In this document: positions 1,865-28,935 of the stretch, piece after piece
Layout: each line of letters begins with the position of its first letter
Position numbering within the stretch: position 1 is the stretch's first letter
DNA from: a virus
DNA: 64,000 nt
Strand: one strand, 5' to 3'
Virus record (IMG/VR): IMGVR_UViG_3300044712_001218
Location: 1 to 64,000 of that record
Translations under genes and position numbers: made by a program
The notes under the pieces: model-generated
The model's database searches: none
What the model was told of the DNA's origin: nothing
Seen by the model: the letters and a program-made list of their open reading frames with translations, nothing else

Positions 1865-1939
1865 GATTAGCTGATGAGGATTAATTATCCGAAATCAGGA
1901 TGTCCGTCTCAAATAAATAAAGACATCCTGATCCTAATC
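1865..1939 (+). ncRNA. Hammerhead ribozyme 1 (type I)
   Basis: All core elements of a hammerhead are present. Stem I is GATTAG (1865-1870) with CTAATC (1934-1939). The core CTGATGA is at 1871-1877. Stem II is GGAT/ATCC (1878-1881, 1887-1890) with loop TAATT. GAAA follows at 1891-1894. Stem III is a 10 bp helix (1895-1904 with 1922-1931). U1932 and C1933 complete the AUC cleavage triplet. Stem I is open, so it is type I. Cleavage after 1933 would leave an 18 nt leader before the ATG at 1952. Confidence 0.88.
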
Positions 1940-1951
1940 AAATTAATAAAG

Positions 1952-2167
1952 ATGAAAAAATCCATTTATTTGCCAGAAGACCTGATTGATTTTTTAGATG
2001 GTCATAAGATGACTATTTCAATTATTCAGGATATTGAATATGTTGCTGATAAAATATCAAACTGGATTGATTATGGCGGGATTAAATATTCGGACAAAAA
2101 AGCCCTTAAATTAGCCCAAACTTATTATGAGCTTAAATTATTAGAAAAGGAATATTATGAATTATAG
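1952..2167 (+). CDS. Hypothetical early protein, 71 aa
   Basis: It begins MKKSIYLPEDLIDFL and is rich in Lys, Asp and Tyr; no family is recognised. The frame is open upstream to 1874, but that would put the start inside the catalytic core of hammerhead 1. The ATG at 1952, 18 nt after the cleavage site, is preferred. The stop codon TAG ends at 2167, the first base of hammerhead 2, so this cistron is bounded on both sides by predicted ribozymes. Confidence 0.6.
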   Translation: MKKSIYLPEDLIDFLDGHKMTISIIQDIEYVADKISNWIDYGGIKYSDKKALKLAQTYYELKLLEKEYYEL

Positions 2168-2222
2168 GTTAACTGATGAGTCTTTAATAGACGAAACAGG
2201 ACAAAAGCGTCCTGTATTAACC
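2167..2222 (+). ncRNA. Hammerhead ribozyme 2 (type I)
   Basis: Stem I is GGTTAA (2167-2172) with TTAACC (2217-2222). The core CTGATGA is at 2173-2179. Stem II is GTCT/AGAC (2180-2183, 2189-2192) with loop TTAAT. GAAA is at 2193-2196. Stem III is CAGGAC/GTCCTG (2197-2202, 2209-2214). U2215-A2216 complete a GUA triplet. Every helix is perfectly paired. Cleavage after 2216 would leave a 23 nt leader before the ATG at 2240. The first base is the last base of the preceding stop codon. Confidence 0.9.
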
Positions 2223-2239
2223 AATTAAAAACTAGTAAA

Positions 2240-2638
2240 ATGTCAAAAGTAGCAAAATCACCCGTACAGGATGTAGACGTCCTGAATTCAACCAGTGTTG
2301 AAAATGTAAAAACTTTAGCCCCGGAGTTAAGCCCTGTCGAAAAGGCTAATGCTCGTTATGAAGCTCAGCTGGCAAGGATTGAAAAGAGCAGGCAGGCTTT
2401 TATTGAGAAGGAAACCAAAAAAGCCGAGCGGGAAGCCAAGAAGGCTGAAAACCCAACTCCCTGGTCCTCTACCATGGACATTATGGTCAAATCACCGGAC
2501 ATTGAAATGTCAGCTGTTTTGGAGCAGCTCAAGGCAAAAGGCGTTGATGTTGAGGCCAGCAAATCCACCATTCACACCACCTTTGCCTATGTACGCAGGG
2601 TAGTCAAGGGTCTGCGTGAGAATGGTTTGATGGCCTAA
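2240..2638 (+). CDS. Hypothetical basic/coiled-coil protein with C-terminal helical domain, 132 aa
   Basis: The N-terminal third is disordered. Residues about 35-70 form a Lys/Glu/Ala-rich coiled-coil-like helix (AREAKKAE type), and the last 55 residues (from PWSSTMDIM to RENGLMA) look like a compact helical, possibly winged-helix, domain. No family is recognised. It follows hammerhead 2 by 23 nt and is followed by a strong intrinsic terminator, so a processed monocistronic RNA is likely. Codon use is less AT-rich than its neighbours, consistent with high expression. Confidence 0.7.
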   Translation: MSKVAKSPVQDVDVLNSTSVENVKTLAPELSPVEKANARYEAQLARIEKSRQAFIEKETKKAEREAKKAENPTPWSSTMDIMVKSPDIEMSAVLEQLKAKGVDVEASKSTIHTTFAYVRRVVKGLRENGLMA

Positions 2639-2671
2639 TTCCCTAAGATATAGGGCAGATGATCAAAGACA

Positions 2672-2698
2672 GGCTCCCCTAACACGGGAGCCTTTTTT
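2672..2698 (+). terminator. Intrinsic terminator
   Basis: GGCTCCC (2672-2678) and GGGAGCC (2686-2692) form a perfect 7 bp GC-rich hairpin with a 7 nt loop, followed by six T (2693-2698). It sits 34 nt after the stop of the preceding gene. Confidence 0.9.
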
Positions 2699-2915
2699 AT
2701 GCCCTTATGTGATCTGTTCGTTTAATTTGATCAAAAACTAGGTTTCAACCCAGTTTAAGATTAGGCATTCTTTATTAAATGAATAGGCATTCCTTAGATC
2801 AATTATTAATCATCCTATCAATGGATGATTTAATTAAATTTAATTAATTTCTTTTAATTATTTTGTTTTATCAAAATTGTTTTGTATATTAGATGATAAT
2901 TTTAAATCTAATAAA

Positions 2916-3152
2916 ATGAAAACTATCACAATTCAAATCATCCATCAAATTATCTCTGATGCTTTTGACATTTGTAGATCAAACAAAGATTACAAATTCA
3001 AAAATTATCATGATGCTTATAATTTAGCAATCAAAAAAGCAGGATTTGAAAATGTTGATGATTATAAAACAAGAATGGAGCCTATTTATCATGCTCATTT
3101 AGAAAAAAGAGTAAAAATGTATTATTTAACAAATCATCCTTGCAAAAATTAA
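2916..3152 (+). CDS. Hypothetical protein, 78 aa
   Basis: Starts MKTITIQIIHQIISDAFDICRS and is predicted helical, soluble and rich in Lys, Tyr and Asp; no family is recognised. The ATG at 2916 is preferred over an in-frame upstream TTG. Upstream is AT-rich DNA with TTTGTATATT (about 2880-2889), a string repeated at about 18745 before another transcription unit, so this gene may have its own promoter after the terminator at 2672. A second terminator follows at 3174. Confidence 0.55.
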   Translation: MKTITIQIIHQIISDAFDICRSNKDYKFKNYHDAYNLAIKKAGFENVDDYKTRMEPIYHAHLEKRVKMYYLTNHPCKN

Positions 3153-3173
3153 AGATCAGGATGAAAGGATATA

Positions 3174-3200
3174 AGGAGTAGGATGTCTTCTGCTCCTTTT
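3174..3200 (+). terminator. Intrinsic terminator
   Basis: AGGAGTAG (3174-3181) pairs with CTGCTCCT (3190-3197), 8 bp with one G-U, followed by a short T tract. It lies 22 nt after the 78 aa gene, isolating that gene as a small unit. Confidence 0.7.
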
Positions 3201-3285
3201 CTATTTCCCACCCATTAAAGGTCACCCAGACGGTTGAATTTCCTCCGGGGGTGATCACTATTTTTATTTAACTAAACTTAGGCTT

Positions 3286-3477
3286 ATGAAAAAACAACTA
3301 ATTTCAGACATCAGCTCTTGGGTATGTTATGCCAATGCTTTTACCTTCATGGTATTTCTTTTGTTTAGCACTCCTACATTAAGCCCTTTAAACTATGCCA
3401 TGGTTGGAACCTTGGTATCATGTTTCTTTATGGCAGTATCCTGTCTTATCTTTGTTTTTGTTAATTGGAATGACTGA
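3286..3477 (+). CDS. Small membrane protein, 63 aa
   Basis: A short polar N-terminus is followed by two predicted transmembrane helices (about 14-30 and 38-59, the second ending FVFVNWND). No family is recognised. The leader contains TTAAC and AAACTTAGG about 18 and 12 nt before the ATG, a version of the recurrent phage leader. The TGA overlaps the next ATG (ATGACTGA), implying translational coupling. Confidence 0.6.
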   Translation: MKKQLISDISSWVCYANAFTFMVFLLFSTPTLSPLNYAMVGTLVSCFFMAVSCLIFVFVNWND

Positions 3478-3928
3478 TTCAGTAGTTGATTCCGGAAAGA
3501 TTAGCAAGCATGAATTAGATTTCATGTTGGCTGGTCGAGCTATCTTTACCCTACGTAGTGTTGAGACACAAACCAGGTATACGTATAAGATTAAAAATGT
3601 AATGGGTAAAGATAAGATGTGGTTTGTTAGTGTATTAAGAGGTCAGGATAATACCACCGATTATCTGTATATTGGAACTTTGTTTCAGGAAATGGATGGG
3701 TCATTCCATTTTAAACTCACCGCTGCTAGTAAACTTAGAAGTGACGATAAACGGGTATTGGCTTTTACCTTTACCTTAAATAAGTTACTTAAGGGAACCC
3801 CTGATCCACGGGTAGAGATTTGGCATGAGGGAAGATGTGGAAGATGTGGAAGACTCCTTACTGTACCAGAAAGTATTGCTTCTGGTTTTGGTCCTGAATG
3901 TTTAACCCAAATTAAATTCAGATTCTAA
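3470..3928 (+). CDS. DUF6011-like protein with C-terminal zinc motif, 152 aa
   Basis: The start at 3470 (MTDSVVDSGKIS) is chosen because it overlaps the preceding stop; the frame is also open upstream. The C-terminus carries CGRCGRLLTVPESIASGFG followed by PEC, a zinc-knuckle pattern (CxxC plus a distal Cys) typical of the DUF6011 tail seen in many phage proteins. The N-terminal ~110 residues (YTYKIKNVMGKDKMWFVSVL...) resemble a small beta-rich domain. Molecular function is unknown; nucleic-acid binding is a guess. Confidence 0.65.
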   Translation: MTDSVVDSGKISKHELDFMLAGRAIFTLRSVETQTRYTYKIKNVMGKDKMWFVSVLRGQDNTTDYLYIGTLFQEMDGSFHFKLTAASKLRSDDKRVLAFTFTLNKLLKGTPDPRVEIWHEGRCGRCGRLLTVPESIASGFGPECLTQIKFRF

Positions 3929-4062
3929 TGGATGCTAAAACCAGGAATTGCCTATTTGGTTTTACTGAGGATAATCCCAGTGATGAAGTAGAAGATCAGA
4001 AAGAACCTATCAACTATTGTCCCGGATGTAAAAACCATGATTGTGATAATTGTGATCTATGA
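3928..4062 (+). CDS. Small cysteine-rich protein, 44 aa
   Basis: Begins MDAKTRNCLFGF, is acidic in the middle, and ends CPGCKNHDCDNCDL with two CxxC pairs, so it probably binds one zinc ion. The ATG overlaps the previous stop (TAATG). No family is recognised; a hairpin lies just after it. Confidence 0.55.
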   Translation: MDAKTRNCLFGFTEDNPSDEVEDQKEPINYCPGCKNHDCDNCDL

Positions 4063-4072
4063 ATAAACAACC

Positions 4073-4098
4073 AGCTCGTACTCTTAGGGGTACGGGCT
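4073..4098 (+). other. Strong hairpin without U-tract
   Basis: AGCTCGTAC (4073-4081) pairs with GTACGGGCT (4090-4098), 9 bp with one G-U, loop TCTTAGGG. No T run follows, so it is more likely an mRNA stability or processing element than an intrinsic terminator. Confidence 0.5.
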
Positions 4099-4143
4099 TG
4101 TGGTGGTGAAAAGCCTTAGTAATTTCATAAAAACCTAGAAATC

Positions 4144-4245
4144 ATGAATGAAATAACCATTGCTTTATTATGCATTGGAATATTATTATTCCTCTGCTGG
4201 ATGGGTCGTGAATTAACTTCCTATCACAATAACAAACGTTCTTAA
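4144..4245 (+). CDS. Very small single-pass membrane protein, 33 aa
   Basis: MNEITIALLCIGILLFLCWM forms one hydrophobic helix, followed by a polar tail (GRELTSYHNNKRS). The leader has CCTTAG and CCTAG variants of the recurrent motif before ATCATG. Reality is supported by leader and position, not by recognised homology. Confidence 0.45.
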   Translation: MNEITIALLCIGILLFLCWMGRELTSYHNNKRS

Positions 4246-4271
4246 TTATTAACCAACAAAAACTTAGTCAA

Positions 4272-4541
4272 ATGTTACAAAAAGATCAAATTTTAGTAGC
4301 AACTGAAGCTCAATTCTTCAGCTGTGGAAGAACCAAGTTGTACATGGATGCTATTGTAAAAGCAGCCAATTATGAGGATACTCATTCTCAGACAATAATA
4401 GTCTTTCTTTCCAAGAAAAGGGAACAGAAAAATGATTATGTCAGAGTTGATACGGATCGTGGAAAACTCAGACCTGCCAAACCCGAAGAAATTGAAATGT
4501 GGGAGGCTGGAATCCGTAATTGTAGGGGGGAATTGATATGA
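4272..4541 (+). CDS. Hypothetical protein, 89 aa
   Basis: Begins MLQKDQILVATEAQFFSCG; soluble, mixed alpha/beta, charged; no family is recognised. Its leader starts TTAACC exactly 23 nt before the ATG and contains AAACTTAGT, which is what two hammerhead cleavages in this window would leave. No ribozyme core lies upstream here. The TGA overlaps the next ATG (ATGA). Confidence 0.6.
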   Translation: MLQKDQILVATEAQFFSCGRTKLYMDAIVKAANYEDTHSQTIIVFLSKKREQKNDYVRVDTDRGKLRPAKPEEIEMWEAGIRNCRGELI

Positions 4542-4849
4542 TCAGGATTATTATAGCTATAGCACTGGTTGGTTATTGCTTTCAACTCATAAGCAATCCA
4601 CGGGAGGAGATGATCCTTAGCTTCTATGGAAGATGGTTATTAAGGCTCCACGATTCTGGTAAGTTCGGGAGATATATATACAAACCCCTTGGAGGATGTA
4701 TTGTCTGTAATACCACATGGATTGGTTTTCTCTGTGGCTGGTTTATCTTTCATCAATCCTTCTTTGTTGGTCTTGTTACTGGTCTTGCTTCTGCCGGACT
4801 AGCAAATTTCATTCAAATTCTTCATACATTAATCAAGAAAAACCTATAA
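4538..4849 (+). CDS. Membrane protein with CxxC motif, 103 aa
   Basis: The first hydrophobic helix is MIRIIIAIALVGYCFQLI. A cytoplasmic or periplasmic stretch contains KPLGGCIVCNTTW, with a Cys pair, and is followed by two more hydrophobic helices (about 60-95). The arrangement resembles small phage membrane proteins of the DUF1360 type, but this is a weak resemblance. It is translationally coupled (ATGA) to the gene before. Confidence 0.6.
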   Translation: MIRIIIAIALVGYCFQLISNPREEMILSFYGRWLLRLHDSGKFGRYIYKPLGGCIVCNTTWIGFLCGWFIFHQSFFVGLVTGLASAGLANFIQILHTLIKKNL

Positions 4850-4852
4850 ATT

Positions 4853-5008
4853 ATGGAAAACCAGGAATTGTACAAAGTAAGCAGGGTATTTAAAAATAGT
4901 ACTCAACGGATATTGATCAGAAAGAACCTGACATTGGAACAAGCTCAGGCATTGGTCAAATCGTTTCCAACAAAACCATTATCTATGGTTGTTTATGATA
5001 AACAGTAA
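4853..5008 (+). CDS. Hypothetical protein, 51 aa
   Basis: MENQELYKVSRVFKNSTQRI... ends PLSMVVYDKQ; a small basic alpha/beta protein, family unknown. Its TAA is separated by one base from stem I of hammerhead 3, so the ribozyme would cut just after this cistron. Confidence 0.5.
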   Translation: MENQELYKVSRVFKNSTQRILIRKNLTLEQAQALVKSFPTKPLSMVVYDKQ

Positions 5009-5009
5009 A

Positions 5010-5069
5010 GGTTAACTGATGAGGGTTTAATACCCGAAACAGACCTATTCATTTAGGTCTGTATTAACC
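5010..5069 (+). ncRNA. Hammerhead ribozyme 3 (type I)
   Basis: Stem I is GGTTAA (5010-5015) with TTAACC (5064-5069). CTGATGA is at 5016-5022. Stem II is GGGT/ACCC (5023-5026, 5032-5035) with loop TTAAT. GAAA is at 5036-5039. Stem III is 8 bp, CAGACCTA/TAGGTCTG (5040-5047, 5054-5061). U5062-A5063 complete a GUA triplet. Cleavage after 5063 would leave a 21 nt leader before the ATG at 5085. Stem I matches ribozyme 2 exactly, while stem III is different in sequence but fully compensated. Confidence 0.9.
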
Positions 5070-5084
5070 AAAAAACTTAGTAAA

Positions 5085-5288
5085 ATGAAAGATCAAAGCA
5101 TTCTTAATAATCCTTATATTGTCCCTCATCGTGGCTTGGGATTATTTACGGTGTTCCATTTATCTCAATATGGAACTTTTCTTTCAGGAACTAACAGTTT
5201 CCATTTAATGGAACATTTGAACTATGAATATTTGGCTTATGGGATGTATATTCATCAGCCAATAGTTTGCAAATTCAATATGAATTAA
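5085..5288 (+). CDS. Hypothetical protein, 67 aa
   Basis: MKDQSILNNPYIVPHRGLGL...; aromatic-rich (Tyr, Phe, His) with no clear domain. The start lies 21 nt after the predicted hammerhead 3 cut and is preceded by AAACTTAGTAAA. The next gene starts 3 nt after its stop. Confidence 0.55.
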   Translation: MKDQSILNNPYIVPHRGLGLFTVFHLSQYGTFLSGTNSFHLMEHLNYEYLAYGMYIHQPIVCKFNMN

Positions 5289-5290
5289 TT

Positions 5291-5719
5291 ATGAAACGAG
5301 TATTAATTTCAGCCATCCTCTTTCCGCTTACCCTTTGTGTTAGCCCTGCTATACACCGAGCGGATATTTCTGATCATATAACTACCCTTGTTAAGTATGA
5401 GAAATTTGTCAATGCTTTAACATGGGTTGAATCAAGACATGATTCATTAGCCGTGGGCTCTGCTCATGACTTAGGTTTATTCCAAATTACCCCTATTCGC
5501 TTATTGGATTATAATAGACGTACCGGTAAGCATTATACTGATCAGGATTTGTTTAACCCCCGTATTAGTCGTATTATCTTTGATTATTATTCAAAAGACC
5601 TCCCATTTGAGGAAGCAGCCCGTAAATGGAATAGGGCATATCAGTGGAGGGATTCTCTTGGAACGGTATATTGGAATAGAGTTTCTAAACAATTAAATAA
5701 ACTTAGTAATGAAAACTGA
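5291..5719 (+). CDS. Secreted lysozyme/lytic transglycosylase-like protein, 142 aa
   Basis: An N-terminal signal peptide (MKRVLISAILFPLTLCVS) sends it through Sec. The body contains ALTWVESRHDSLAVG followed by HDLGLFQITP: a catalytic Glu followed by the G-L-F-Q-I strand, the SLT/goose-lysozyme family 1 arrangement that cuts peptidoglycan glycan strands. It is short for the family. The start at 5291 is chosen over an in-frame site at 5267 because it opens the signal peptide. It lies among early genes, away from the late lysis cassette, so a role in cell-wall remodelling or exclusion is possible. Confidence 0.7.
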   Translation: MKRVLISAILFPLTLCVSPAIHRADISDHITTLVKYEKFVNALTWVESRHDSLAVGSAHDLGLFQITPIRLLDYNRRTGKHYTDQDLFNPRISRIIFDYYSKDLPFEEAARKWNRAYQWRDSLGTVYWNRVSKQLNKLSNEN

Positions 5720-6233
5720 AATTGATCAATTTAGCCCGTGCCGGGAGGCATTGGAATTTCGCAGACAATACCCAACTTTTGAACAGGCATGGAAGGAATG
5801 TCCACGAGGAGATTGGATGTTATGGATTGCAAAAAGGTTAAAAATTGATAATAGAAAATTAACTCTTGCAAAAGGATTTTGTGCTAATACGGTTATTCAT
5901 TTAATGAAAGATCAAAAAAGTAAAGATGCAGTGAAAGCCGCTATTGATTATGGAAATAATCAGATAGATGAAGATCAGTTGAAAACTGCTGCTGATGCTG
6001 CTGCTGCTGCTTATGCTGCTGATGCTGCTGCTGCTATTGCTGCTTATGCTGCTGCTTATGCTGCTGCTGCTACTACTGCTGCTGATGCTGCTGCTGCTTA
6101 TGCTGCTGCTGCTGCTGCTGCTTATGCTGCTACTGCTAAAAAGCAAAATCAGATGATTACTGCTAACATATGCAGGAATATTCTTACGGAAGTGGTGATG
6201 GAAAAGATTAAAAGGTTAACTGATGAAGATTAA
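5709..6233 (+). CDS. Imm-5-like phage protein with Ala/Tyr repeat, 174 aa
   Basis: The N-terminal ~75 residues (CREALEFRRQYPTFEQAW, then CPRGDWMLWIAKRLKI) match the family annotated in many phages as putative immunity protein Imm-5. Residues about 95-145 are an Ala-rich tract with Asp/Tyr spacing, encoded by a GCT microsatellite (about 5987-6137) that should vary in length by slippage. The C-terminal helix follows. The last codons and the stop lie inside hammerhead 4, so ribozyme and protein share sequence. The start overlaps the previous gene by 11 nt. Molecular function is unknown. Confidence 0.65.
   Translation: MKTEIDQFSPCREALEFRRQYPTFEQAWKECPRGDWMLWIAKRLKIDNRKLTLAKGFCANTVIHLMKDQKSKDAVKAAIDYGNNQIDEDQLKTAADAAAAAYAADAAAAIAAYAAAYAAAATTAADAAAAYAAAAAAAYAATAKKQNQMITANICRNILTEVVMEKIKRLTDED
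5987..6137 (+). repeat. GCT microsatellite within the Imm-5-like gene
   Basis: A run of mostly GCT codons interrupted by GAT and TAT encodes an alanine-rich helix with regular Asp/Tyr. Simple repeats of this kind are prone to slippage, so length variation between phage genomes is expected. Confidence 0.85.
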
Positions 6234-6271
6234 TTATCCGAAAGCCTTTCTAACAAGGAAGGTTATTAACC
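6214..6271 (+). ncRNA. Hammerhead ribozyme 4 (type I, core-adjacent mismatch)
   Basis: Stem I is GGTTAA (6214-6219) with TTAACC (6266-6271). CTGATGA is at 6220-6226. Stem II is AGAT/ATCC with loop TAATT. GAAA is at 6240-6243. Stem III is GCCTTTC/GGAAGGT (6244-6250, 6257-6263) with two G-U pairs. U6264-A6265 end the triplet. The normally conserved G10.1-C11.1 pair is A6227-C6239, which should weaken activity. Stem II and core match ribozyme 1 except for that base. Cleavage after 6265 would leave a 23 nt leader before the ATG at 6289. Confidence 0.75.
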
Positions 6272-6288
6272 AATTAAAAACTTAGTAT

Positions 6289-6672
6289 ATGAAAACTGAA
6301 GAAAAAGTAAACACCGAAGCATTGGAAACTAAAGCTATTAATCCCTTTGCTGTAGTCAGTCATTTTGTATCTGGCGAAAATGAAGATGATCGTATTATTC
6401 ATTCCGATCTTGGAATATCAGAAGAAAGAAACCATGAACTTTGCCAGAGAATGCAGGATTTTGTGGATAGAAGGAAAGTAGGTGATGAGATAAATATAAA
6501 CTGGCCTGAAGCCTTTCAGGAACTTACTTATGATGTTACTAATACCAATGAAGCAGTTTATATTGCTTTTTCCCTGACATATTCCATATTGGATGTACAA
6601 ATAGATACGTTAAAACGGATATTGCATAAACAGCAAATAATAATGACTATGCAAAACATTTTTGAGAAATAA
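6289..6672 (+). CDS. Hypothetical protein, 127 aa
   Basis: Begins MKTEEKVNTEALETKAINPF; an acidic N-terminus and a helical C-terminal half (LDVQIDTLKRILHKQQIIM). It contains IHSDLGISEERNHELCQRMQ, suggesting a small helical domain. No family is recognised. The start is 23 nt after the predicted hammerhead 4 cleavage. It is followed by a structured non-coding segment and terminator. Confidence 0.6.
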   Translation: MKTEEKVNTEALETKAINPFAVVSHFVSGENEDDRIIHSDLGISEERNHELCQRMQDFVDRRKVGDEININWPEAFQELTYDVTNTNEAVYIAFSLTYSILDVQIDTLKRILHKQQIIMTMQNIFEK

Positions 6673-6674
6673 TC

Positions 6675-6859
6675 GACGGTTCACAGTCCGTTTTAATTGT
6701 GGTGACAGTCCTGCCTGTGAAGGTCGGGCTGGAAACAAACCGATTGCTAAAAACTTAGTTAAAGACTTTCTCATGTGGAGAGCAACTTGTGGGTTTACTA
6801 AGTTTTCCCGACAATAACACATGGGCGGCCTGACCCCCTCCGTAATGGGGGTTTATTTT
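6675..6859 (+). ncRNA. Structured RNA candidate ending in a terminator
   Basis: Several helices can be drawn between the 127 aa gene and the next gene. GACGG/CCGTT closes a hairpin at 6675-6692. GTCGGG (6723-6728) pairs with CCCGAC (6807-6812). Nested inside, AAACTTAGT (6751-6759) pairs perfectly with ACTAAGTTT (6797-6805). A terminator ends the segment. The nested AAACTTAGT is the recurrent leader motif sequestered in a helix. No known riboswitch or ribozyme core is recognised. Confidence 0.45.
6833..6859 (+). terminator. Intrinsic terminator
   Basis: ACCCCC (6833-6838) and GGGGGT (6847-6852) form a 6 bp GC-rich hairpin with an 8 nt loop, followed by TTATTTTA. It ends the transcript that includes the structured RNA candidate. 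Confidence 0.8.
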
Positions 6860-6913
6860 AAATTTGGAGTATTAAATGGAATTAATTATATTTAACCACT
6901 AAACTTAGTAATT

Positions 6914-7414
6914 ATGATACACTTTACTAAAATTACCATTGATTCGGCGTACGCTAAAAAGTGGAATGTCGATATGAATGATTTCATTGTTCTCACGAAT
7001 GATGAAGGCAATCCCATTCGTAATACCCTTTATCGTAAAGGAGGAATGGGAGGAACATGGAAAGATGGATATTGTGAGCTGATTAAATACATAGAAGAAG
7101 AGTATTCTGATAGCATCACAAAGATCGCTGCTGATAAGCCTCACTTAGCTGGTCATTGGTGTATCATCAATGAGAAGGGGGAGGAAAAGGTGGTGACTAA
7201 GCAGTTCGAATACATCTATCATCAGGGAGGCATAATCTACTCCATTAACAATACCTATTACAATATTGAGACAGGAGAGGTATATTGTAAAGGAAATCAT
7301 TCTATAAGCTCCTCTCAATTCATATTCGCCGATAATATTTATCACACTGATAAAGAAAAAATGGGAATATGGAAGATTAACAAGTTTGATGGAACCTATG
7401 AAATATTTAAATAA
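6914..7414 (+). CDS. Hypothetical protein, 166 aa
   Basis: MIHFTKITIDSAYAKKWNVD... contains a Gly-rich turn (YRKGGMGGTW) and repeated beta-strand-like segments in the C-terminal half (GGIIYSINNTYYNIETGEVY; GIWKINKFDGTYEIF), suggesting a KWG-like or WG-repeat beta structure. Family unknown. The leader holds TTAACC 22 nt before the ATG and AAACTTAGTA just upstream; TAAATTTG at about 6857-6864 matches the Bacteroidota -7 element but lacks an evident -33 box. Confidence 0.6.
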   Translation: MIHFTKITIDSAYAKKWNVDMNDFIVLTNDEGNPIRNTLYRKGGMGGTWKDGYCELIKYIEEEYSDSITKIAADKPHLAGHWCIINEKGEEKVVTKQFEYIYHQGGIIYSINNTYYNIETGEVYCKGNHSISSSQFIFADNIYHTDKEKMGIWKINKFDGTYEIFK

Positions 7415-7417
7415 TAT

Positions 7418-7771
7418 ATGAAAGTACTGGCTAAAGCTCACCCTAATAAGAAGTATATCTACCATAACAACTTAGATAAACTATATCTGGAGGCGAGACT
7501 GGAAAATAATAAAGTCAGTTTTGTAGAAGTCTCTACTACCGTTCCTATTAAGGAACATCTATTAAAAGAAGAGACCGTCTTATCTTTATTCCCAGTGGAT
7601 GTGGAAGAAACCAGTAGACCCTTCTTAATTCAGGAAAACTTGGATTTCTATGCTATCTTACATAGAGATAAACCAAGGTATCAAAAAAGATTTATTGAAC
7701 TTAAAACCGGAAATAGTAATGGAACCTTATCCCGAACAAGTCCCTCGTTGGGCCGGCTTAGCCACCGATGA
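7418..7771 (+). CDS. Hypothetical protein, 117 aa
   Basis: MKVLAKAHPNKKYIYHNNLDK...; a mixed alpha/beta protein with no recognised family. It starts 3 nt after the previous gene and its last 53 nt overlap the helicase start at 7719, an overlap long enough that its C-terminus (SRTSPSLGRLSHR) may be a by-product of the downstream frame. Coupling to the helicase is likely. Confidence 0.55.
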   Translation: MKVLAKAHPNKKYIYHNNLDKLYLEARLENNKVSFVEVSTTVPIKEHLLKEETVLSLFPVDVEETSRPFLIQENLDFYAILHRDKPRYQKRFIELKTGNSNGTLSRTSPSLGRLSHR

Positions 7772-9362
7772 CGAAGGGAGTAAATCTATCAGGGTATTAT
7801 TTCCATTTAATGAGGAAGACTTAAGAAATGTTAAGAGTCTTCCTTCTAGAAGATGGGATGCCAAGAATAGATGTTGGTATGTTCCTTATTCCATTCAGAG
7901 TGCCCAAAGACTAAAGGAATGGGGTTTTAATATAGGGGCTGGTCTTCTTAAGAGAATTGAACAGTCCATGGAAGAATCTACCAAGATTGATATTACGAAA
8001 CTTGACAAGTTGAATATTCCTGGTTTAAAAGGGGAACTTAGACCATTCCAAAAGCAGGCAGTATTGTTTACCGAAATGAAAGAGGGTAGAATACTCAACG
8101 CGGATGAAATGGGAATGGGAAAAACGGTAGAGACTCTGGCATGGATTCAACTTCATAGGGATAGAATTCCGGTAGTCATTGTTTGTCCGGCTACTCTTAA
8201 GTGGAATTGGGAAAGGGAAACTATTAAGTGGTTACCAGATCCAAAGGTTCAGGTATTAGAGGGAACTAAACCCTACCGTATTACCGGAAGGATTATCATA
8301 TTGAATTATGATATTCTTCCTAACTGGGTTCAAACGTTAAAAGCCTTACATCCTCAGATTCTTATTACAGATGAAAGCCATTACTTTAAATCCAATAAGG
8401 CTAAAAGAACCAAGGCTATTAAACAATTAGGGAAGAATATACCCCATGTCCTTGCTTTATCCGGCACCCCGATCGTTAACCGGCCGGTGGAAGCTTTTAA
8501 TGCCATTCATCTGGTTAATCATAATATTGTTCCTACCTATTGGGAATTTGCCCAAAGGTATTGTGCCCCCAAACATAATGGGTATGGTTGGGATTTCAGT
8601 GGAGCAAGCAATACAGATGAGTTACATGAATTACTTATCAATAGCATTATGATTAGAAGGCTTAAGAAGGATTATTTAAAGGAGCTGCCTGACAAAGTAC
8701 ATTCCTTTATCCCTATTGAGTTAGATAATCAGGGAGAATATAACCTTGCTGAATCTGACTTTATTTCCTTTGTAAGGAATAGTAAAGGGAGAGAAGCAGC
8801 TGAACGGGCATCCAATGCTCAGGCATTTGCAGAAATTGAAGGATTAAAACAGATTGCCGTCAAAGGAAAAATCAGTCAGGCTGTCACATGGGTGGAAGAT
8901 TTCTTTACTTCTGACTCAGGTAAGCTGGTTGTTTATGCCAGACATAAATTTGTTATAGATGCGTTAATGACTGTCTTTAATGAGATTGCTGTTAAAATAG
9001 ACGGGTCTATTGCCGTTAATAAAAGACAGAATGTTATTGATCAATTCCAGAATAATCCTGATGTAAAATTAATTGTGATCAGTGATGCCGGAGGAGTTGG
9101 TATTACTCTTACTGCTGCTTCTACCATTGCTATACTTGAATTGCCATGGACTCCGGGGCAACTTGATCAGATTATTGACCGGCTTCATCGTATTGGACAA
9201 AAGGATACAGTAAACATCTATTATCTTCTTGCTCGTGATACCATTGAGGAAAAGATTGCTTATCTGCTTGATAAAAAAAGAAAAGTGATCAGCAGTGTAC
9301 TTGATGGAGAAGATGTGGAAATGGAATCATTACTTATGGAACTTATGAATGAATATAATTAA
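7719..9362 (+). CDS. SNF2-family DNA helicase with HARP-like N-terminus, 547 aa
   Basis: The start is set at MEPYPEQVPRW (7719). The N-terminus (FNEEDLRNVKSLPSRRWDA... YVPYSI) resembles the HARP domain of SMARCAL1-type annealing helicases. Helicase motifs follow in order: Walker A region DEMGMGKTVET, Walker B DESH, motif III LSGTP, and the C-terminal lobe with SDAGGVGITLTAAS and the arginine-finger motif DRLHRIGQ. SMARCAL1/ZRANB3 relatives rewind or remodel forked DNA, so a role in phage fork restart or recombination is likely. Full length. Confidence 0.88.
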   Translation: MEPYPEQVPRWAGLATDDEGSKSIRVLFPFNEEDLRNVKSLPSRRWDAKNRCWYVPYSIQSAQRLKEWGFNIGAGLLKRIEQSMEESTKIDITKLDKLNIPGLKGELRPFQKQAVLFTEMKEGRILNADEMGMGKTVETLAWIQLHRDRIPVVIVCPATLKWNWERETIKWLPDPKVQVLEGTKPYRITGRIIILNYDILPNWVQTLKALHPQILITDESHYFKSNKAKRTKAIKQLGKNIPHVLALSGTPIVNRPVEAFNAIHLVNHNIVPTYWEFAQRYCAPKHNGYGWDFSGASNTDELHELLINSIMIRRLKKDYLKELPDKVHSFIPIELDNQGEYNLAESDFISFVRNSKGREAAERASNAQAFAEIEGLKQIAVKGKISQAVTWVEDFFTSDSGKLVVYARHKFVIDALMTVFNEIAVKIDGSIAVNKRQNVIDQFQNNPDVKLIVISDAGGVGITLTAASTIAILELPWTPGQLDQIIDRLHRIGQKDTVNIYYLLARDTIEEKIAYLLDKKRKVISSVLDGEDVEMESLLMELMNEYN

Positions 9363-9374
9363 AAACTTAGTAAA

Positions 9375-9665
9375 ATGAAAACTGTAAAATTCAAAAAATG
9401 GATTTGTACCATTCATATTCATCATTATCTGAATGGTCGTCCAGCAATCCAATTAAGAAGTGCTGACAAACTCGATCCGGGTCCGGTATTAACTGCTACT
9501 GTCAATCTTCCTGAAATCCCTATCGAAACAGATGAGGTAATTATTAAGGATTATTCTGAAAATGAAGGAATATTGGAAGTTCTTATTGAGGCCGGTATTA
9601 TAAGTGAACCAAACTGGACTATAAAAAGTGATCATGTAACCTTTCCTGTTTGTAGACTGCTATGA
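9375..9665 (+). CDS. Hypothetical protein, 96 aa
   Basis: MKTVKFKKWICTIHIHHYLNG... contains RPAIQLRSADKLDPGPVLTA and an acidic middle (EVIIKDYSENEGILEVLIEAGII). Small phage proteins of this general shape are common but unnamed. The leader has AAACTTAGTAAA directly before the ATG. The TGA overlaps the next ATG (ATGA). Confidence 0.6.
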   Translation: MKTVKFKKWICTIHIHHYLNGRPAIQLRSADKLDPGPVLTATVNLPEIPIETDEVIIKDYSENEGILEVLIEAGIISEPNWTIKSDHVTFPVCRLL

Positions 9666-9957
9666 AAATATACTTCACCAAACATGCCTTAACCAAAGGT
9701 ATTATCACTCAGGAATGTAATGAGAGGGATTGGAAAATTAAAGGAAATTGTTTAACCCAATACCATTCCTCTCTCTCTATAATGTGAATCCTATTACTAA
9801 ATCCAAAGTAAGGATACCTCTACAATATTGGTATCGTCCTGATTGGCATTTAGATAAACAGGAAGCAATAGCTCAAGCAGAATATATGCGTGGTAAAGCC
9901 ATACAAGCTATTCAAAGGAGATTAGATCGGTTAAATAATCTTAAATTTATATTATAA
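9662..9957 (+). pseudogene. Small phage protein split by a one-base frameshift
   Basis: The first frame from 9662 reads MKIYFTKHALTKGIITQE and stops at about 9786. A second frame, one base back, is open from about 9748 and reads through YWYRPDWHLDKQEAIAQAEY to the stop at 9957. Together they match the pattern of a small phage family that begins MKIYxTKxALTKGI and ends W-H-x4-EA-x-A-x-AExMR-K. The shift must occur near the AAA of GGAAATTG (about 9742-9748). Causes could be a real frameshift, a base-calling error in the A run, or programmed -1 shifting. Confidence 0.55.
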
Positions 9958-10133
9958 TGAAAGAGGAAATATGTGATTTGATTGCTGGTTATAAAAGAAA
10001 AATCAGGATCAAACAAAAACAGATAGAATATAATGAGAAGTTAGGAAAAGGAGGAGTATGTATTTCAATTAATGGCGAAATACAAATGCTAAATGCTGTT
10101 ATTTCTGATCTACAAAAGATTGCTTATAAATGA
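9957..10133 (+). CDS. Hypothetical protein, 58 aa
   Basis: MKEEICDLIAGYKRKIRIKQKQI...; a small charged helical protein. The ATG overlaps the previous stop (TAATG) and its TGA overlaps the primase ATG (ATGA), so it is embedded in a coupled series. No family is recognised. Confidence 0.5.
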   Translation: MKEEICDLIAGYKRKIRIKQKQIEYNEKLGKGGVCISINGEIQMLNAVISDLQKIAYK

Positions 10134-11062
10134 ATATAATTGAATTATATAGAGATTTTAATGTACCTCATGCTACAGAAGGTCACAAACATTGCAGACC
10201 GGGATGGGTAAATGTAGAGTGCCCTTTTTGTACAGGAAACCCCGGTCTACATTTGGGTTATAACTTAGCATCCGGTGGATTCGTTTGTTGGAGATGTGGT
10301 TGGCATCCGCCAATCCTTACTATCAGTAAACTTATTCATATATCAGAACCGGAGGCAAAAGCCCTTATAAAATTATACGGTGGTATTGTTTCTTCTGCCA
10401 AATTTACCCCTATTACTAAAATTAAGGGCAAAGATCACCAATTACCTAGCAATACAAGCCCTTTACAATCAAATCACCGGCATTATTTAGAAGGACGTGG
10501 ATTTGATCCTGATAAATTGATTAAAGAGTGGAATTTGCTTGGAACCGGCCCCATTTCTCTTCTATCTACTGGAAAAGGAAAAGATAAAAAAGAAATTAAT
10601 TTTAAACATAGGATTATTGCCCCTATTATTTGGGATGGAATAGAGGTATCCTTTCAGGGAAGAGATATTACTGATAAGGCTAGTTTAAAATATATTACCT
10701 GTCCCAAAGATCGGGAACTAATATTTCATAAACATATTTTATATGGAAAACAAGAATATTGGAAGGAATCTGTTATACTCGTTGAAGGGATCACTGACGT
10801 ATGGAGATTTGGAAGATATAGTATGGCTTGTTTTGGTATTAAATTCACTCCAGTTCAGGTACGAGAAATCGCTAAAAGATTTAGAACCGTGGCAGTCTGC
10901 TTTGATGGTGGCGAATTACAGGCTATTAGTCAATCTAATAAAATCGTTGCAGAATTACGCTTCCGGGGAGTCGATGCCTTCAGAGTGGATATAGAAGGTG
11001 ATCCCGGAGAAATGAAACAAGAAGAAGCTGATTATTTAGTTAACCAATTAATAAAAACTTAG
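10130..11062 (+). CDS. DNA primase (zinc-binding plus TOPRIM), 310 aa
   Basis: An N-terminal zinc ribbon (VECPFCTG and FVCWRCGWH, residues about 28-65) is of the CHC2-like primase type. A central region (RGFDPDKLIKEWNL) and a TOPRIM domain follow, with VILVEGITDVW (catalytic Glu) and VAVCFDGGE (acidic metal site) at about residues 215-265. It would make primers for lagging-strand synthesis with the DnaB-like helicase at 14317. Residues DGG replace the more common DxD-type ending, which is tolerated in phage members. Full length for small phage primases. Confidence 0.8.
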   Translation: MNIIELYRDFNVPHATEGHKHCRPGWVNVECPFCTGNPGLHLGYNLASGGFVCWRCGWHPPILTISKLIHISEPEAKALIKLYGGIVSSAKFTPITKIKGKDHQLPSNTSPLQSNHRHYLEGRGFDPDKLIKEWNLLGTGPISLLSTGKGKDKKEINFKHRIIAPIIWDGIEVSFQGRDITDKASLKYITCPKDRELIFHKHILYGKQEYWKESVILVEGITDVWRFGRYSMACFGIKFTPVQVREIAKRFRTVAVCFDGGELQAISQSNKIVAELRFRGVDAFRVDIEGDPGEMKQEEADYLVNQLIKT

Positions 11063-11067
11063 AAATC

Positions 11068-11352
11068 ATGAGAACAAAAAAGTTTATGTCTACCTTTTAT
11101 AAAGTAGACGAAATAAAAAGAGAGGATAATAAAATTACACTTTCTTTAAATCAATATGATCGAATGGATGATGAATCTGAAGAAAGAGGATCACCAAACT
11201 ATAAATGGGATTATAAGATAGAATTAGAAATAACAAATCATTGTTTTCGGCTACAAAAAATTCATCCATTTCATACTATGAATACAGCTGATGCTAATTT
11301 TACTATACGGATAGATACCATAAATAATCAGTTATATATTGATTTTGAATAA
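11068..11352 (+). CDS. Hypothetical protein, 94 aa
   Basis: MRTKKFMSTFYKVDEIKR...; beta-rich, charged, ends TIRIDTINNQLYIDFE. Family unknown. The leader carries AAACTTAG before ATCATG, and TTAACC 28 nt upstream lies inside the primase C-terminal codons. Confidence 0.5.
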   Translation: MRTKKFMSTFYKVDEIKREDNKITLSLNQYDRMDDESEERGSPNYKWDYKIELEITNHCFRLQKIHPFHTMNTADANFTIRIDTINNQLYIDFE

Positions 11353-21075: not shown

Positions 21076-21951
21076 ATGAATAAACTATATTTAACTTGGG
21101 AAGACGTAATGAATAAATTACGCACCGTAGACTTATTAAATAAAAAGGTCTACGGTGTCCCTAATGGCGGTATGATTGCTGCCGGATTCCTTAATTATGC
21201 CAAGAAGGTATATAAACCGGAATTTGCTGATATTATTCTTGATGATATTATTGATTCCGGAGGGACACAGAAGTGGTATAAGAAACAATTTCCCGATACC
21301 GTTTTTCATGCCTTATTTGATAAACAACTGGATCCTCAACTTCATGATCAGTGGGTAGTTTTTCCATGGGAAGCTCAACATCCTAATGGTGAGAATACAG
21401 TTCAGCATAATATTATCAGACAGCTCCAGTATATTGGAGAAGATGTTAATAGGGAAGGATTATTGAAAACTCCTGATAGAGTAGTAAAGATGTGGGGTGA
21501 AATCTTTTCCGGATATGATAAAGATGCCAAAGAACTTCTTACCACCTTTGATGCTGACGGTTATGCTGATCATTATGATGAGATTGTACTATTGAAGGAC
21601 ATTGAAGTTTATTCCATGTGTGAACATCACATGCTGCCTTTCTTCGGTAAAGCTCATGTAGCCTATATTCCTGGAAAAAAGATTGTAGGTATAAGTAAAC
21701 TGGCAAGACTGGTAGATATGTATGCTAGAAGACTTCAAATACAAGAGCGTATTGGTGATCAGGTCACTTCGAGCATTATGGAGTTATTAGAACCAAAAGG
21801 AGCTGCTTGCATAATAGAGGCAACTCATATGTGTATGCGGATGAGAGGAGTTCAGAAGCAGAACTCTATTATGACTACCTCCAGCATGAAGGGAGCCTTC
21901 TTGGATAAGCCGGCCGCTCGTAATGAACTCATGGAATTAATACGGCGATGA
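21076..21951 (+). CDS. folE: Phosphoribosyltransferase-GTP cyclohydrolase I fusion, 291 aa
   Basis: Residues about 108-291 are Fol[21 protein letters not shown] with zinc Cys/His ligands, [20 protein letters not shown], and [12 protein letters not shown]. Residues about 1-100 are a type I phosphoribosyltransferase-like domain with [14 protein letters not shown] and a PRPP-binding loop [14 protein letters not shown]. FolE opens the GTP ring to dihydroneopterin triphosphate, the first step of preQ0 synthesis; the extra domain could supply purine nucleotides by salvage, an inference. Classical FolE enzymes are about 190-220 aa, so the extension is a real addition. Confidence 0.88.
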
Positions 21952-23000
21952 ATATTTATACCGCTGGGAATGTAGGAATAATTTCCCGTGAAAAAGCCTT
22001 AAGTAAGGTTATCCTTAGAAGACTATTATCCTTCTATGAAATACATGGGAAATTATTCGCTGCAGACCAATCATTTGAATTTATAACTAAAAAAATGGAA
22101 AGAAATAAAAAGGTAGAATTGTTTTTGGATTCAGGGGCTTTCTCTGCTTGGAGCCAAGGGGTTTCTATTGATATTAATGATTATATCCAATTTATCAAGG
22201 AAAATATGGCCGTAATAGGCATTTATGCCAATCTGGATGTCATTGGAGATGTCAGGGCAACTTGGAACAATCAAAAGATAATGGAGGCGGCAGGATTAAA
22301 GCCATTGCCCGTATTTCATTATGGGGAGGATGAAAAGTGGCTTGAGCGATTACTACGTCAGGGTTATGATTATATCAGTTTAGGAGGCATGGTTCCGATC
22401 AGTACAGATAATCTTATCCTTTGGTTGGATAGAATCTATTCCAAATATCTTACGGATTCAAAAGGAATGCCTTGTGTAAAAGTACATGGTTTTGGTCTTA
22501 CCAGTTTAAGACTAATGTTACGCTATCCTTGGTTCTCAGTTGATTCTACCAGTTGGGTAGTAACAGGGAGGATGGGAGGAATTTATATTCCACGTTTTCA
22601 TCATGGTCAATGGATGTATGATGAGAATTCATGGAAGGTGACTGTTTCAGGAAGAAGTCCTAACAAAATAAGTAAAGGAAAACATATATTGACTATGAAT
22701 ATTCTTGAGAAAAAAGTATTTATGGATTATATAGAAATGAAGGGATACGCTATCGGTAAGTCAGAATTTAAAAAAGTTGATCAATCACATAAATTAGAAA
22801 AGAATGAAAAGTGGATTGATAAAAAGCCATCCAATAAAACAGTTAAAAGAGAAATGGAAATTATACTGGAACCTGGTATTTCTAATACTTACCAGTTACG
22901 TGATGAAATGAATATAGTATTTTTTAATGATCTTGAAAAAAGTATGCAATCATGGCCATGGTCTTTTAAAACAAAAAGTCAGAATTCAATATTTAATTAA
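21948..23000 (+). CDS. dpdA: DpdA-like DNA 7-deazaguanine transglycosylase, 350 aa
   Basis: [55 protein letters not shown] and [26 protein letters not shown] follow the TGT-barrel order of tRNA-guanine transglycosylase relatives of the phage DpdA type. Such enzymes swap guanine in DNA for a 7-deazaguanine base. Coupling to folE (4 nt overlap) and presence of queD/E/C support DNA modification rather than tRNA salvage. A poorly conserved, Lys-rich C-terminus (about 265-350) may bind DNA. Confidence 0.82.
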
Positions 23001-25357: not shown

Positions 25358-26199
25358 TGATCAGGGGATACAGCTTAATAAGTCTCGGGGTAGGAGTTCA
25401 GAGTTCTGCTCTCTACTATATGAGTTCTATGGGAATTCTACCAAGAATAAATATGGCAATCTTTGCCGATACTGGTGGAGAGAAGTCTAAAACTCTGGAG
25501 TATTTACAATACCTGCAAAAGTGGAAGAAGGATAATAATGGAATACCAATTCATGTGGCAAATTTCATTAATCTGGAGAATGACTTATTAAGGGAGGATG
25601 AAGGCAGATTTTCTTCTATTCCGGCTTTTACTCTTAATGAAGATGGAGAGAAAGGAATGCTCAGACGTCAATGTACCGGAGAATATAAAATAGCCCAGAT
25701 TAACAAGAAGTATCGAGAGCTGATGAAACTGGGTAATAAGTATTTCCCTAAAACAGAAGTGTGGATAGGAATTACTCAGGAGGAGAAAGATAGAATGGCC
25801 ATCCCGCTGGAGCAGTGGAAAATAAATGTATATCCTTTCTGTGGATATAAGATTTATCACGATGGTCACTTTGAGCTATTTCCAGGTTTTGAATCAACCC
25901 GTACTTCTATTCTTTCGTGGTATAAGGAGAATAATCTTCCAATCCCTGAGAAGTCTTCCTGTAAATTTTGCCCATTTCATGGCTACAATAGCTGGAAGAG
26001 ACTTAAGGAGATAAGTCCTAGTGATTTTGAAGATGCCTGTAAAGTGGATGATAAGATAAGACATTCATCCATGAAAGGAGTTAAGAATCCTATCTATCTC
26101 CACGAGTCTTTAAAACCACTAAGAGAAGTAAAATTTAATACCCGTACCATTGGATTCTTTGATGATCACGGTAATTGTTCTGATAATTGTGGAATATGA
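25357..26199 (+). CDS. PAPS reductase / PP-loop family protein, 280 aa
   Basis: SLGVGVQSSALYYMSSMG is the PP-loop (S-x-G-x-QSS), followed by IFADTGGEKSKTLEYLQYL, the PAPS reductase-like adenine-nucleotide alpha-hydrolase strand. RRQCTGEYKI, WIGITQEEKDRM and CKFCPFHGYNSWKRLK add conserved Cys and the ligand region. Phages often carry this family in replication or modification regions; substrates are not established. Coupled on both sides by 1-4 nt overlaps. Confidence 0.7.
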   Translation: MIRGYSLISLGVGVQSSALYYMSSMGILPRINMAIFADTGGEKSKTLEYLQYLQKWKKDNNGIPIHVANFINLENDLLREDEGRFSSIPAFTLNEDGEKGMLRRQCTGEYKIAQINKKYRELMKLGNKYFPKTEVWIGITQEEKDRMAIPLEQWKINVYPFCGYKIYHDGHFELFPGFESTRTSILSWYKENNLPIPEKSSCKFCPFHGYNSWKRLKEISPSDFEDACKVDDKIRHSSMKGVKNPIYLHESLKPLREVKFNTRTIGFFDDHGNCSDNCGI

Positions 26200-28720: not shown

Positions 28721-28935
28721 AAGAAGCTATAGCAGTACTAGAAAAAGAATTAAATGAACTCACTCATCACTTTACTAAAGTCAGTGAGGCCTTTATAGAA
28801 AAGAAACTTTCTGAAAAAGATTATATCAGAATAGTTACTCAAACAACCCGTAAAATTAGTGAATTAATCGGAGCTATTGAAATATTAGAAAGTATACCAG
28901 AAAAGACAAATATAAACAATAATTGTAGTTTATGA
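28717..28935 (+). CDS. Hypothetical coiled-coil protein, 72 aa
   Basis: MKEAIAVLEKELNELTHHFT...; a long amphipathic helix with a heptad-like pattern, probably coiled coil. ATGA overlap with the polymerase gene suggests coupling. No family is recognised. Confidence 0.5.
   Translation: MKEAIAVLEKELNELTHHFTKVSEAFIEKKLSEKDYIRIVTQTTRKISELIGAIEILESIPEKTNINNNCSL

Follow-up and report, generated by a model that had tools for sequence, protein, structure and literature searches.

Type I hammerhead ribozymes between the stop and start codons of phage genes: a candidate mRNA-processing array

The 64,000-nt stretch analyzed here (positions 1 to 64,000 of IMG/VR virus record IMGVR_UViG_3300044712_001218, hereafter the window) carries four sequences laid out as type I hammerhead ribozymes (HHRs), each shortly before a start codon. 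Are these elements genuine ribozymes, and what would self-cleaving RNAs do at the junctions of phage genes?

Four hammerhead layouts in the window

A structural descriptor applied to both strands of the 64 kb returned exactly four matches (table 1), at the positions proposed in a first-pass annotation, and none in 100 Markov-1 simulated windows. All four elements combine the CUGAUGA and GAAA core with an NUH cleavage triplet, a stem I of 6 bp, a stem II of 3.5–4 bp, and a stem III of 7–11 bp. As the annotation had stated, the predicted cuts of HH1, HH2, HH3, and HH4 fall 18, 23, 21, and 23 nt before an ATG, respectively. A covariance model, R1, was built solely from HHRs of other phages, the window members being left out. 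Searching the whole 73,401-bp record, it recovered exactly HH1–HH4, with 32.2 bits for HH1, 64.5 for HH2, 62.7 for HH3, and 49.7 for HH4, and per-genome E-values from 3e-13 to 3e-5 (2.5e-5 for HH1). The HH1 match ends early, at 1916, probably because of its long loop III.

The description of all four as intact applies to HH1–HH3 only. In these three, no core position departs from the consensus, the G10.1–C11.1 pair closing stem II is present, and the minimum-energy structure is a hammerhead (z −3.2, −4.0, and −4.1 for HH1, HH2, and HH3, respectively). HH4 has A–C instead, a mismatch unique to it among the 339 HHRs surveyed below (G–C in 330), and does not take up a hammerhead in its minimum-energy fold. 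From these features, HH4 is probably weak, decaying, or impaired.

The Rfam search suggested by the annotation gave a different picture: release 15, applied at gathering threshold, does not report any of the window's hammerheads, and RF00163 (Hammerhead_1) scores HH2 only, whose 16.9 bits fall short of the cut-off of 34. Among 16 related loci searched with RF00163 and RF03152 (RAGATH-1-hammerhead), one element exceeds the gathering threshold. The phage elements share the core and the three-way junction with both families and fall mostly below gathering. The RF00163 shortfall lies with the Rfam model, not with the motif. When the array region was compared with named phages by BLASTN, no match was obtained. 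Matches to isrG, Afu_254, and microRNAs around 5965–6145 were discarded; they fall in GCT alanine repeats of ORF 5709–6233.

Three of the ribozymes adjoin or overlap an upstream stop codon. The first base of HH2 is the last base of TAG (2165–2167), a TAA lies at 5006–5008 upstream of HH3, and the TAA at 6231–6233 is inside stem II/loop II of HH4. HH1 has no clear gene directly upstream, the nearest ORF of at least 50 codons ending about 180 nt before it. HH1 and HH2 flank a single gene, and two further genes separate the HH3-led gene from HH4. Several ribozyme-free junctions and a strong terminator-like hairpin lie between HH2 and HH3, contrary to the initial view of an array at consecutive cistron boundaries. 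Since most junctions of the region lack a ribozyme, their placement is not a universal rule within this phage.

Table 1. Ribozymes, predicted leaders, genes, and hairpins of the array region (window coordinates)
Feature	Coordinates	Strand	Details	Support
HH1, type I hammerhead	1865..1939	+	predicted cut after 1933	descriptor, MFE, R1
HH1 stem I	1865-1870/1934-1939	+	GATTAG/CTAATC	
HH1 core	1871-1877	+		
HH1 stem II	1878-1890	+		
HH1 stem III	1894-1904/1922-1932	+		
Predicted post-cleavage leader of gene 1952-2167	1934..1951	+	18 nt	
CDS led by HH1	1952..2167	+	71 aa, without Pfam match	
HH2, type I hammerhead	2167..2222	+	stem I GGTTAA/TTAACC; predicted cut after 2216	
Predicted post-cleavage leader of gene 2240-2638	2217..2239	+	23 nt	
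CDS led by HH2	2240..2638	+	132 aa, without Pfam match	
Terminator-like hairpin, strong	2671-2693	+	3' of HH2-led CDS	
HH3, type I hammerhead	5010..5069	+	stem I GGTTAA/TTAACC; predicted cut after 5063	
Predicted post-cleavage leader of gene 5085-5288	5064..5084	+	21 nt; AAAACTTAGT motif	
CDS led by HH3	5085..5288	+	67 aa, without Pfam match	
HH4, type I hammerhead layout with A10.1-C11.1 mismatch	6214..6271	+	predicted cut after 6265	
Predicted post-cleavage leader of gene 6289-6672	6266..6288	+	23 nt; AAAACTTAGT motif	
CDS led by HH4	6289..6672	+	127 aa, without Pfam match	
Twister, type P3 match	6669..6747	+	overlaps stop of HH4-led gene	RF03154
Terminator-like hairpin	6832..6853	+	3' of twister	

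Covariation and position among phage hammerheads

A core-only pattern, in which stems I and III are unconstrained, gave 126 distinct matches among the listed loci. Stem II is perfect in 125 of these and 123 form a full type I hammerhead, with more than 50 distinct stem I sequences. Across 114 distinct sequences we counted 531 double-change cells, and the covariation score was 0.787, compared with 0.155 for shuffled and at most 0.09 for slid pairings. At 59 pairs of orthologous junctions, the ratio of double to single changes was 79:0 in stem II, 65:18 in stem III, and 16:6 in stem I. The comparison with related phages called for by the annotation thus demonstrates covariation of all three stems, orthologous junctions included; these figures come from junctions of other phages, as no close relatives turned up for the four junctions in the window itself. 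Stem III has a GC content of 76% in loci of 40% GC, and the loops are mostly UUCG or GNRA. Loop II is conserved and TNANT-like. A pseudoknot between loop II and the leader was rejected, the mean match being 2.91 nt observed and 2.94 nt permuted.

The survey comprises 339 distinct HHRs at 200 loci in roughly 200 phage sequences; its statistics pass through the descriptor filter, and many members come from contigs of related phages. The median distance from the predicted cut to the start codon is 23 nt (interquartile range 21–27), and the start is ATG in 325 of 329 cases. In a set unbiased with respect to stem I, the cut lies 14–35 nt before the start in 93/129 cases, against 16–19% under the null. 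In the same set, an upstream stop codon is found from −10 to +22 of stem I in 106/124 cases (null 12%), and inside the ribozyme in 70. Frequent positions are +5, in stem I, and +9, in the CUGAUGA core. With the stop in or beside the ribozyme, the predicted cleavage falls between the stop and the start. Neighboring HHRs within a locus are on the same strand in 139 cases and on opposite strands in none. The ORFs that follow the ribozymes are small, with a median length of 73 aa. The HHR of Pelagibacter phage HTVC019P does not lie close to a start codon.

Hammerheads were detected in none of the 27 contigs that encode a homolog of a window protein, a result that doubles as a specificity control; the motif is therefore either dispensable or patchily gained and lost. 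BLAST matches of the HHR consensus to Streptomyces phages were discarded: the region of phage Diane, like a spring-water phage and a lemur-faeces phage, lacks a type I hammerhead, and only a stem III-like hairpin was matched.

A twister candidate and comparison with known systems

The same region contains a twister-P3 match overlooked in the first-pass annotation. It scores 40.3 bits against the RF03154 cut-off of 39.9 (E 4.6e-5, or 1.3e-8 for one genome). Its predicted cut, inferred from the model consensus, is at about 6732|6733, some 40 nt before the ATG at 6773 of a 14-codon ORF. The conserved U–A cleavage step is lacking, a G replacing the U before the cut, and its activity is uncertain. 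In two other phages (G006 and G013), twisters also occupy sites equivalent to those of hammerheads. Twister-P1 was found in 2/70 records with hammerheads and 0/46 without, counts too low to claim enrichment. A proximity of different self-cleaving classes, twister and pistol, near phage genes has been described (Weinberg et al. 2015, via PMC4604425); unlike that association as reported there, the twisters of the two phages hold start-proximal sites.

The novelty implied for such arrays did not survive comparison with the literature. Multiple HHRs flanking prophage genes were reported by Perreault et al. (2011; PMC3088659), who found arrays active in vitro, and that of Agrobacterium also in Escherichia coli, and proposed processing. 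These clusters resemble the window in placing several hammerheads around single genes or short gene blocks, with varying gene identities. They differ in that the accessible text of the paper gives no rule for stop or start positions, which here are a median of 23 nt to the start and a stop in or beside the ribozyme. The HHphage of haloviruses HF1 and HF2, described in the same paper, is likewise an early-region hammerhead, 13 nt before a start codon, and the 5' end of a major transcript suggested activity in vivo. Unlike the window elements, it is a single copy in an archaeal virus with a core insertion near C3, whereas the four cores of the window are canonical CUGAUGA/GAAA. RiboJ is a further parallel, as a 5' UTR hammerhead that removes the upstream leader and standardizes the mRNA 5' end (PMC6206723; PMC7536230). 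It was, however, engineered from sTRSV and is placed after a promoter and followed by a 23-nt hairpin, whereas the phage elements mostly lie between genes and precede an A-rich leader.

Proposed transcript processing, its alternatives, and significance

We consider it probable (roughly 0.7, judging from sequence features) that these elements are type I hammerheads cutting phage transcripts in cis at gene junctions. After transcription, the hammerhead would fold between the stop of one gene and the start of the next and cleave 3' of NUH. The downstream mRNA would carry a 5'-OH and a mostly unstructured leader of roughly 20–25 nt, which would reach about as far upstream as the footprint of a 30S ribosome. 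The mRNA on the other side of the cut would retain its complete reading frame, with the stem III hairpin and a 2',3'-cyclic phosphate at its 3' end. Because the cut would separate the two mRNAs, each gene would become an independent message, shielded from upstream sequence and possibly from 5'- or 3'-end decay. By analogy, the ribozyme may act as a natural equivalent of the RiboJ insulator. What the sequences show is the motif, the covariation of its stems, and where it sits between stop and start codons; that it is cleaved in this phage, insulates genes, and affects stability is what we infer. In E. coli, RiboJ increased mRNA levels about twofold and protein levels two- to tenfold (PMC6206723), and its variants were cleaved in vivo to about 0.84–0.94 with one exception (PMC7536230). 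The processing with near-constant leaders proposed in the annotation is backed by spacing, stop–start placement, co-orientation, and covariation. Its "regulated" character is not: we found no sensor or switch, and cleavage lifts the predicted start accessibility only slightly, from 0.63 to 0.67. Ribosomes translating the upstream gene into the ribozyme could block its folding, which is a point against processing.

The position of the stop codons also allows a more tentative reading, in which the ribozyme would serve as a reporter or regulator of upstream translation. Terminating ribosomes would cover a ribozyme that contains or adjoins the stop, so that cleavage would depend on the level of upstream translation. 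The 106/124 stops of the unbiased set, with their frequent +5 and +9 positions, are in line with this, as is an AU-rich RiboJ variant containing an ORF that was non-functional in E. coli (PMC7536230). The overlap may nevertheless reflect genome compactness alone, since stops in two frames are already part of the core sequence. A switch in which the ribosome binding site is masked by the uncut hammerhead and exposed by cleavage appears improbable. The 5' end of the leader is the 3' strand of stem I, and the slight opening of the start on cleavage is significant (Wilcoxon p 1e-11), but the effect is small and the start is more open with the intact hammerhead (0.63) than with a scrambled segment (0.60).

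Horizontally spreading selfish or neutral inserts, tolerated at junctions, would explain the patchy distribution (0/27 contigs) and the small downstream ORFs. We regard this as unlikely in view of the paired substitutions in stems II and III at orthologous junctions, the narrow distance to the start codon, the strict co-orientation, and the second ribozyme class at equivalent sites elsewhere. That the four elements are hammerhead-like decoys, inactive in vivo, would agree with the core-closing mismatch of HH4 and with scores below Rfam thresholds for all four; the full consensus core and hammerhead fold of HH1–HH3, and their recovery together with HH4 by a model built without them, make it very doubtful. 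Tandem same-strand type I ribozymes yield ligatable ends in retrozymes and viroid-like RNAs, and paired ribozymes could similarly free RNAs the size of a gene, which would be closed into circles by ligation of the 5'-OH to the cyclic phosphate. Least probable of all is this circularization: RtcB is encoded in 0/32 ribozyme-bearing records versus 9/14 control genomes, although a host ligase could still act, and circles were sought by Perreault et al. (2011; PMC3088659) in the arrays they studied, and none were found.

As both HHR clusters in prophages and the idea of processing were published in 2011, an array of this type is not new in kind. The literature searched, outside of which lie Weinberg 2015, Hammann 2012, and de la Pena 2010, contained no statement of the stop/start rule, and its novelty is not proven. 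A 2017 review considered the purpose of bacterial and phage hammerheads an open question (PMC6155905). At current Rfam thresholds most of these elements escape detection, and phage annotation therefore overlooks them. The strict stop–start position is kept where stems covary between orthologous junctions, and a second ribozyme class shares it; these observations speak for mRNA maturation at the level of the cistron. A bolder and speculative extension is a widespread stop–ribozyme–start punctuation, with a built-in stop, a cut at the landing edge of the ribosome, interchangeable ribozyme classes, and cleavage gated by termination, the last of which would tie message separation to translation. 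The cultivated Flavobacterium phage elemo (host BAL314) allows a simple test of mRNA maturation. If true, these phages would possess a natural counterpart of the insulator engineered by synthetic biologists, and could provide insulator parts for hosts that do not use SD sequences.

The window's hammerheads and their surroundings

The source of the window is a tailed phage. Its full record of 73,401 bp (the window is positions 1-64000; locus L127 is the remaining 9 kb) contains major head protein and maturation protease genes besides the tape measure, and also encodes a family A-like DNA polymerase and a clamp loader. The polymerase lies in two ORFs (26187-28511 and 28932-30365), the first with a LAGLIDADG homing-endonuclease domain (intein-like). 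A queuine tRNA-ribosyltransferase-like gene (phrog_887; 21948-23000) possibly serves deazaguanine DNA modification. Most window leaders lack a clear Shine-Dalgarno (SD) sequence, a Bacteroidota-like trait.

The first-pass annotation described four CTGATGA-stem-GAAA-stem-NUH layouts punctuating one early operon. These layouts, HH1-HH4, are real: a three-stem descriptor and R1, a covariance model whose 15 training hammerheads all come from phages other than this one, each recover the same four. The descriptor found only these on both strands of the 64 kb and had no hit in any of 100 Markov-1 simulations, and R1 found nothing further over the whole record. The minimum-energy fold is a hammerhead for HH1, HH2, and HH3; that of HH4 is not, because of its A10.1-C11.1, unique among 339 hammerheads.

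Features of the window and of two other hammerhead-bearing phage records
Feature	Record	Position	Strand	Remark
HH1	window	1865-1939	+	predicted cut after 1933
HH2	window	2167-2222	+	predicted cut after 2216
Strong terminator-like hairpin	window	2671-2693		between HH1-HH2 and HH3-HH4
HH3	window	5010-5069	+	predicted cut after 5063
HH4	window	6214-6271	+	predicted cut after 6265
Type-P3 twister match	window	6669-6747		overlaps stop of HH4-led gene
Tape measure	window	51103-54114
Type-P1 twister	G006	43084-43148	-
Type-P1 twister	G013	31408-31459	-

HH1 comes first in the region, and nothing that is clearly a gene lies immediately upstream of it. G2167 is both the first base of HH2 and the last of the TAG that ends the HH1-led gene, one base separates HH3 from the upstream TAA, and the TAA of gene 5709-6233 falls within HH4. 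A single operon spanning all four is not assured, since a terminator-like hairpin separates the two pairs. The ribozyme-led genes are small and without Pfam match. ORF 5709-6233 contains a GCT-rich alanine repeat (AADAAAAAYAAD...; 5965-6145), which explains false Rfam hits there; its protein has homologues in other phages without hammerheads.

Relatives, covariation, and position

A raw pattern scan of IMG/VR yielded at least 135 distinct matches, cleanly divided into two groups. Among the matches listed, stem II was perfectly paired in 62/135 (2.3% expected) and 61/135 were complete hammerheads, the rest being mostly coding coincidences. A second scan, leaving stems I and III unconstrained, gave at least 126 distinct hits; among the matches listed, 125/126 had a perfect stem II and 123/126 were complete type I hammerheads, with more than 50 different stem I sequences. 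Totals from all three pattern scans are lower bounds, the true number being larger. Covariation scored 0.787 over 114 distinct sequences, versus 0.155 when shuffled. At orthologous junctions (59 pairs with homologous downstream proteins), double versus single changes were 79:0 in stem II, 65:18 in stem III, and 16:6 in stem I, an informative yet biased test because the structural descriptor selected the rows. Whole-record searches found nine hammerheads in the 51-kb phage G003 (4446-8720) and seven in G032; L170, a contig binned as Aliivibrio, has nine within 5.8 kb. Tandem cores lie 53 nt apart in L282 (4218 and 4271), and the stem III loop carries long inserts (tens of nt) in hammerheads of L165, L170 (1334), L106 (1000), and L233 (13708).

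Over at least 339 distinct hammerheads from at least 200 loci, the median cut-to-start distance is 23 nt (IQR 21-27): 22 nt in leaders without an SD-like tetramer and 26.5 nt with one. The downstream start codon is ATG in 325 of 329. In a stem-I-unbiased subset, 93 of 129 matches listed place the cut 14-35 nt before the start (p 5e-39, from counts not fully independent, as related phages are included), versus 16-19% when positions are drawn at random or set 40 nt past other stop codons. Among the matches listed, the stop of a long upstream ORF falls within -10 to +22 of stem I in 106/124 (null 12%) and inside the ribozyme in 70/124, frequently with its last base at -1/0, at the stem TAA (+5), or at the core TGA (+9). 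Successive ribozymes share a strand in 139 cases and oppose in 0. Given this position relative to stop and start codons, predicted cleavage keeps both reading frames whole.

Flavobacterium phage elemo (MT497067, host BAL314), a cultivated phage, has one hammerhead (R1 48.6 bits) whose predicted cut precedes the annotated elemo141A_phanotate41 start by 28 nt; a TAG overlaps stem I. The rule has exceptions: the single hammerhead of Pelagibacter phage HTVC019P (KC465901, 2946-3010; 10-bp stem III), similar to one in phage Jormungand, does not adjoin an annotated start codon.

Twister ribozymes and leader motifs

Downstream of the type-P3 twister match come a 14-codon ORF and, at 6832-6853, a terminator-like hairpin; the activity of the twister match is uncertain because the base at -1 to the cut is G, the consensus being U. 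Two weak twister-P3 hits beside hammerheads, in G006 and G013, were reassigned as type-P1 twisters (51.9 and 47.5 bits, below the Rfam threshold of 67.2; E 1e-9 and 2e-8). Each directly precedes a gene whose next gene is hammerhead-led and adjoins the same lineage-specific leader as the hammerheads there; 46 phages without hammerhead had no type-P1 twister. As a second ribozyme class occupies equivalent sites, selection at such sites appears to be for cleavage, not for the hammerhead as such.

The motif AAAACTTAGT is enriched immediately 5' of ATG in the window (AAACTTAGT: 8 observed versus 1.0 expected), with sites at 4260, 5073, 5699, 6278, 6901, and 9363, roughly 8-10 nt ahead of a start codon. 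Ribozyme-led and ribozyme-free leaders both carry it, so it is part of the leader, not of the hammerhead, possibly an SD-independent translation signal. A similar leader, AAAACYTAGAAA, is present in another ribozyme-bearing phage (G001/L213). TTAACCA-initial leaders with ATG about 22-28 nt on and no hammerhead upstream (window 4249, 6892, 11040, 32469, and 37261; L213) could be either remains of lost ribozymes or leaders with their own role. In L100 (G032; 6224-11141), six hammerheads each precede a near-constant stretch AAAAGTCAGGTGCAGACTATAACAGGC, with ATG at 44-45 nt; these leaders form a different class, possibly a structured one.

Proposed mechanism

The best-supported reading is that each hammerhead would cleave its own transcript in cis, splitting neighboring cistrons and leaving the downstream message with a short leader of fixed length. 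The upstream RNA would then end in stem III, which has 76% GC, against 40% in the loci, and mostly UUCG or GNRA loops. The cut falls near the upstream edge of the 30S footprint, which lies at about -20. Unmasking of the start site on cleavage is unlikely, and ligation of the cleaved RNAs by the phage through RtcB is not supported; a putative gating of cleavage by translation, acting through the stop codons embedded in ribozymes, is plausible. Cistron separation with a fixed leader would resemble the engineered insulator RiboJ, both setting a short leader by cis-cleavage, predicted for the phages. In Escherichia coli, RiboJ roughly doubles mRNA levels and increases protein two- to tenfold (PMC6206723), with in vivo cleavage of about 0.84-0.94 for all variants but one (PMC7536230).

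Prophage hammerhead arrays and their activity were already described in 2011, together with the idea of processing (PMC3088659), and association of ribozymes with one another and with phage genes was also known (PMC4604425); as late as 2017, what hammerheads do in prokaryotes was termed an open question (PMC6155905). The stop-ribozyme-start rule may be new: no prior statement of it was found in the accessible literature covered. Elemo provides a cultivated test case for a hammerhead at a start-proximal site.
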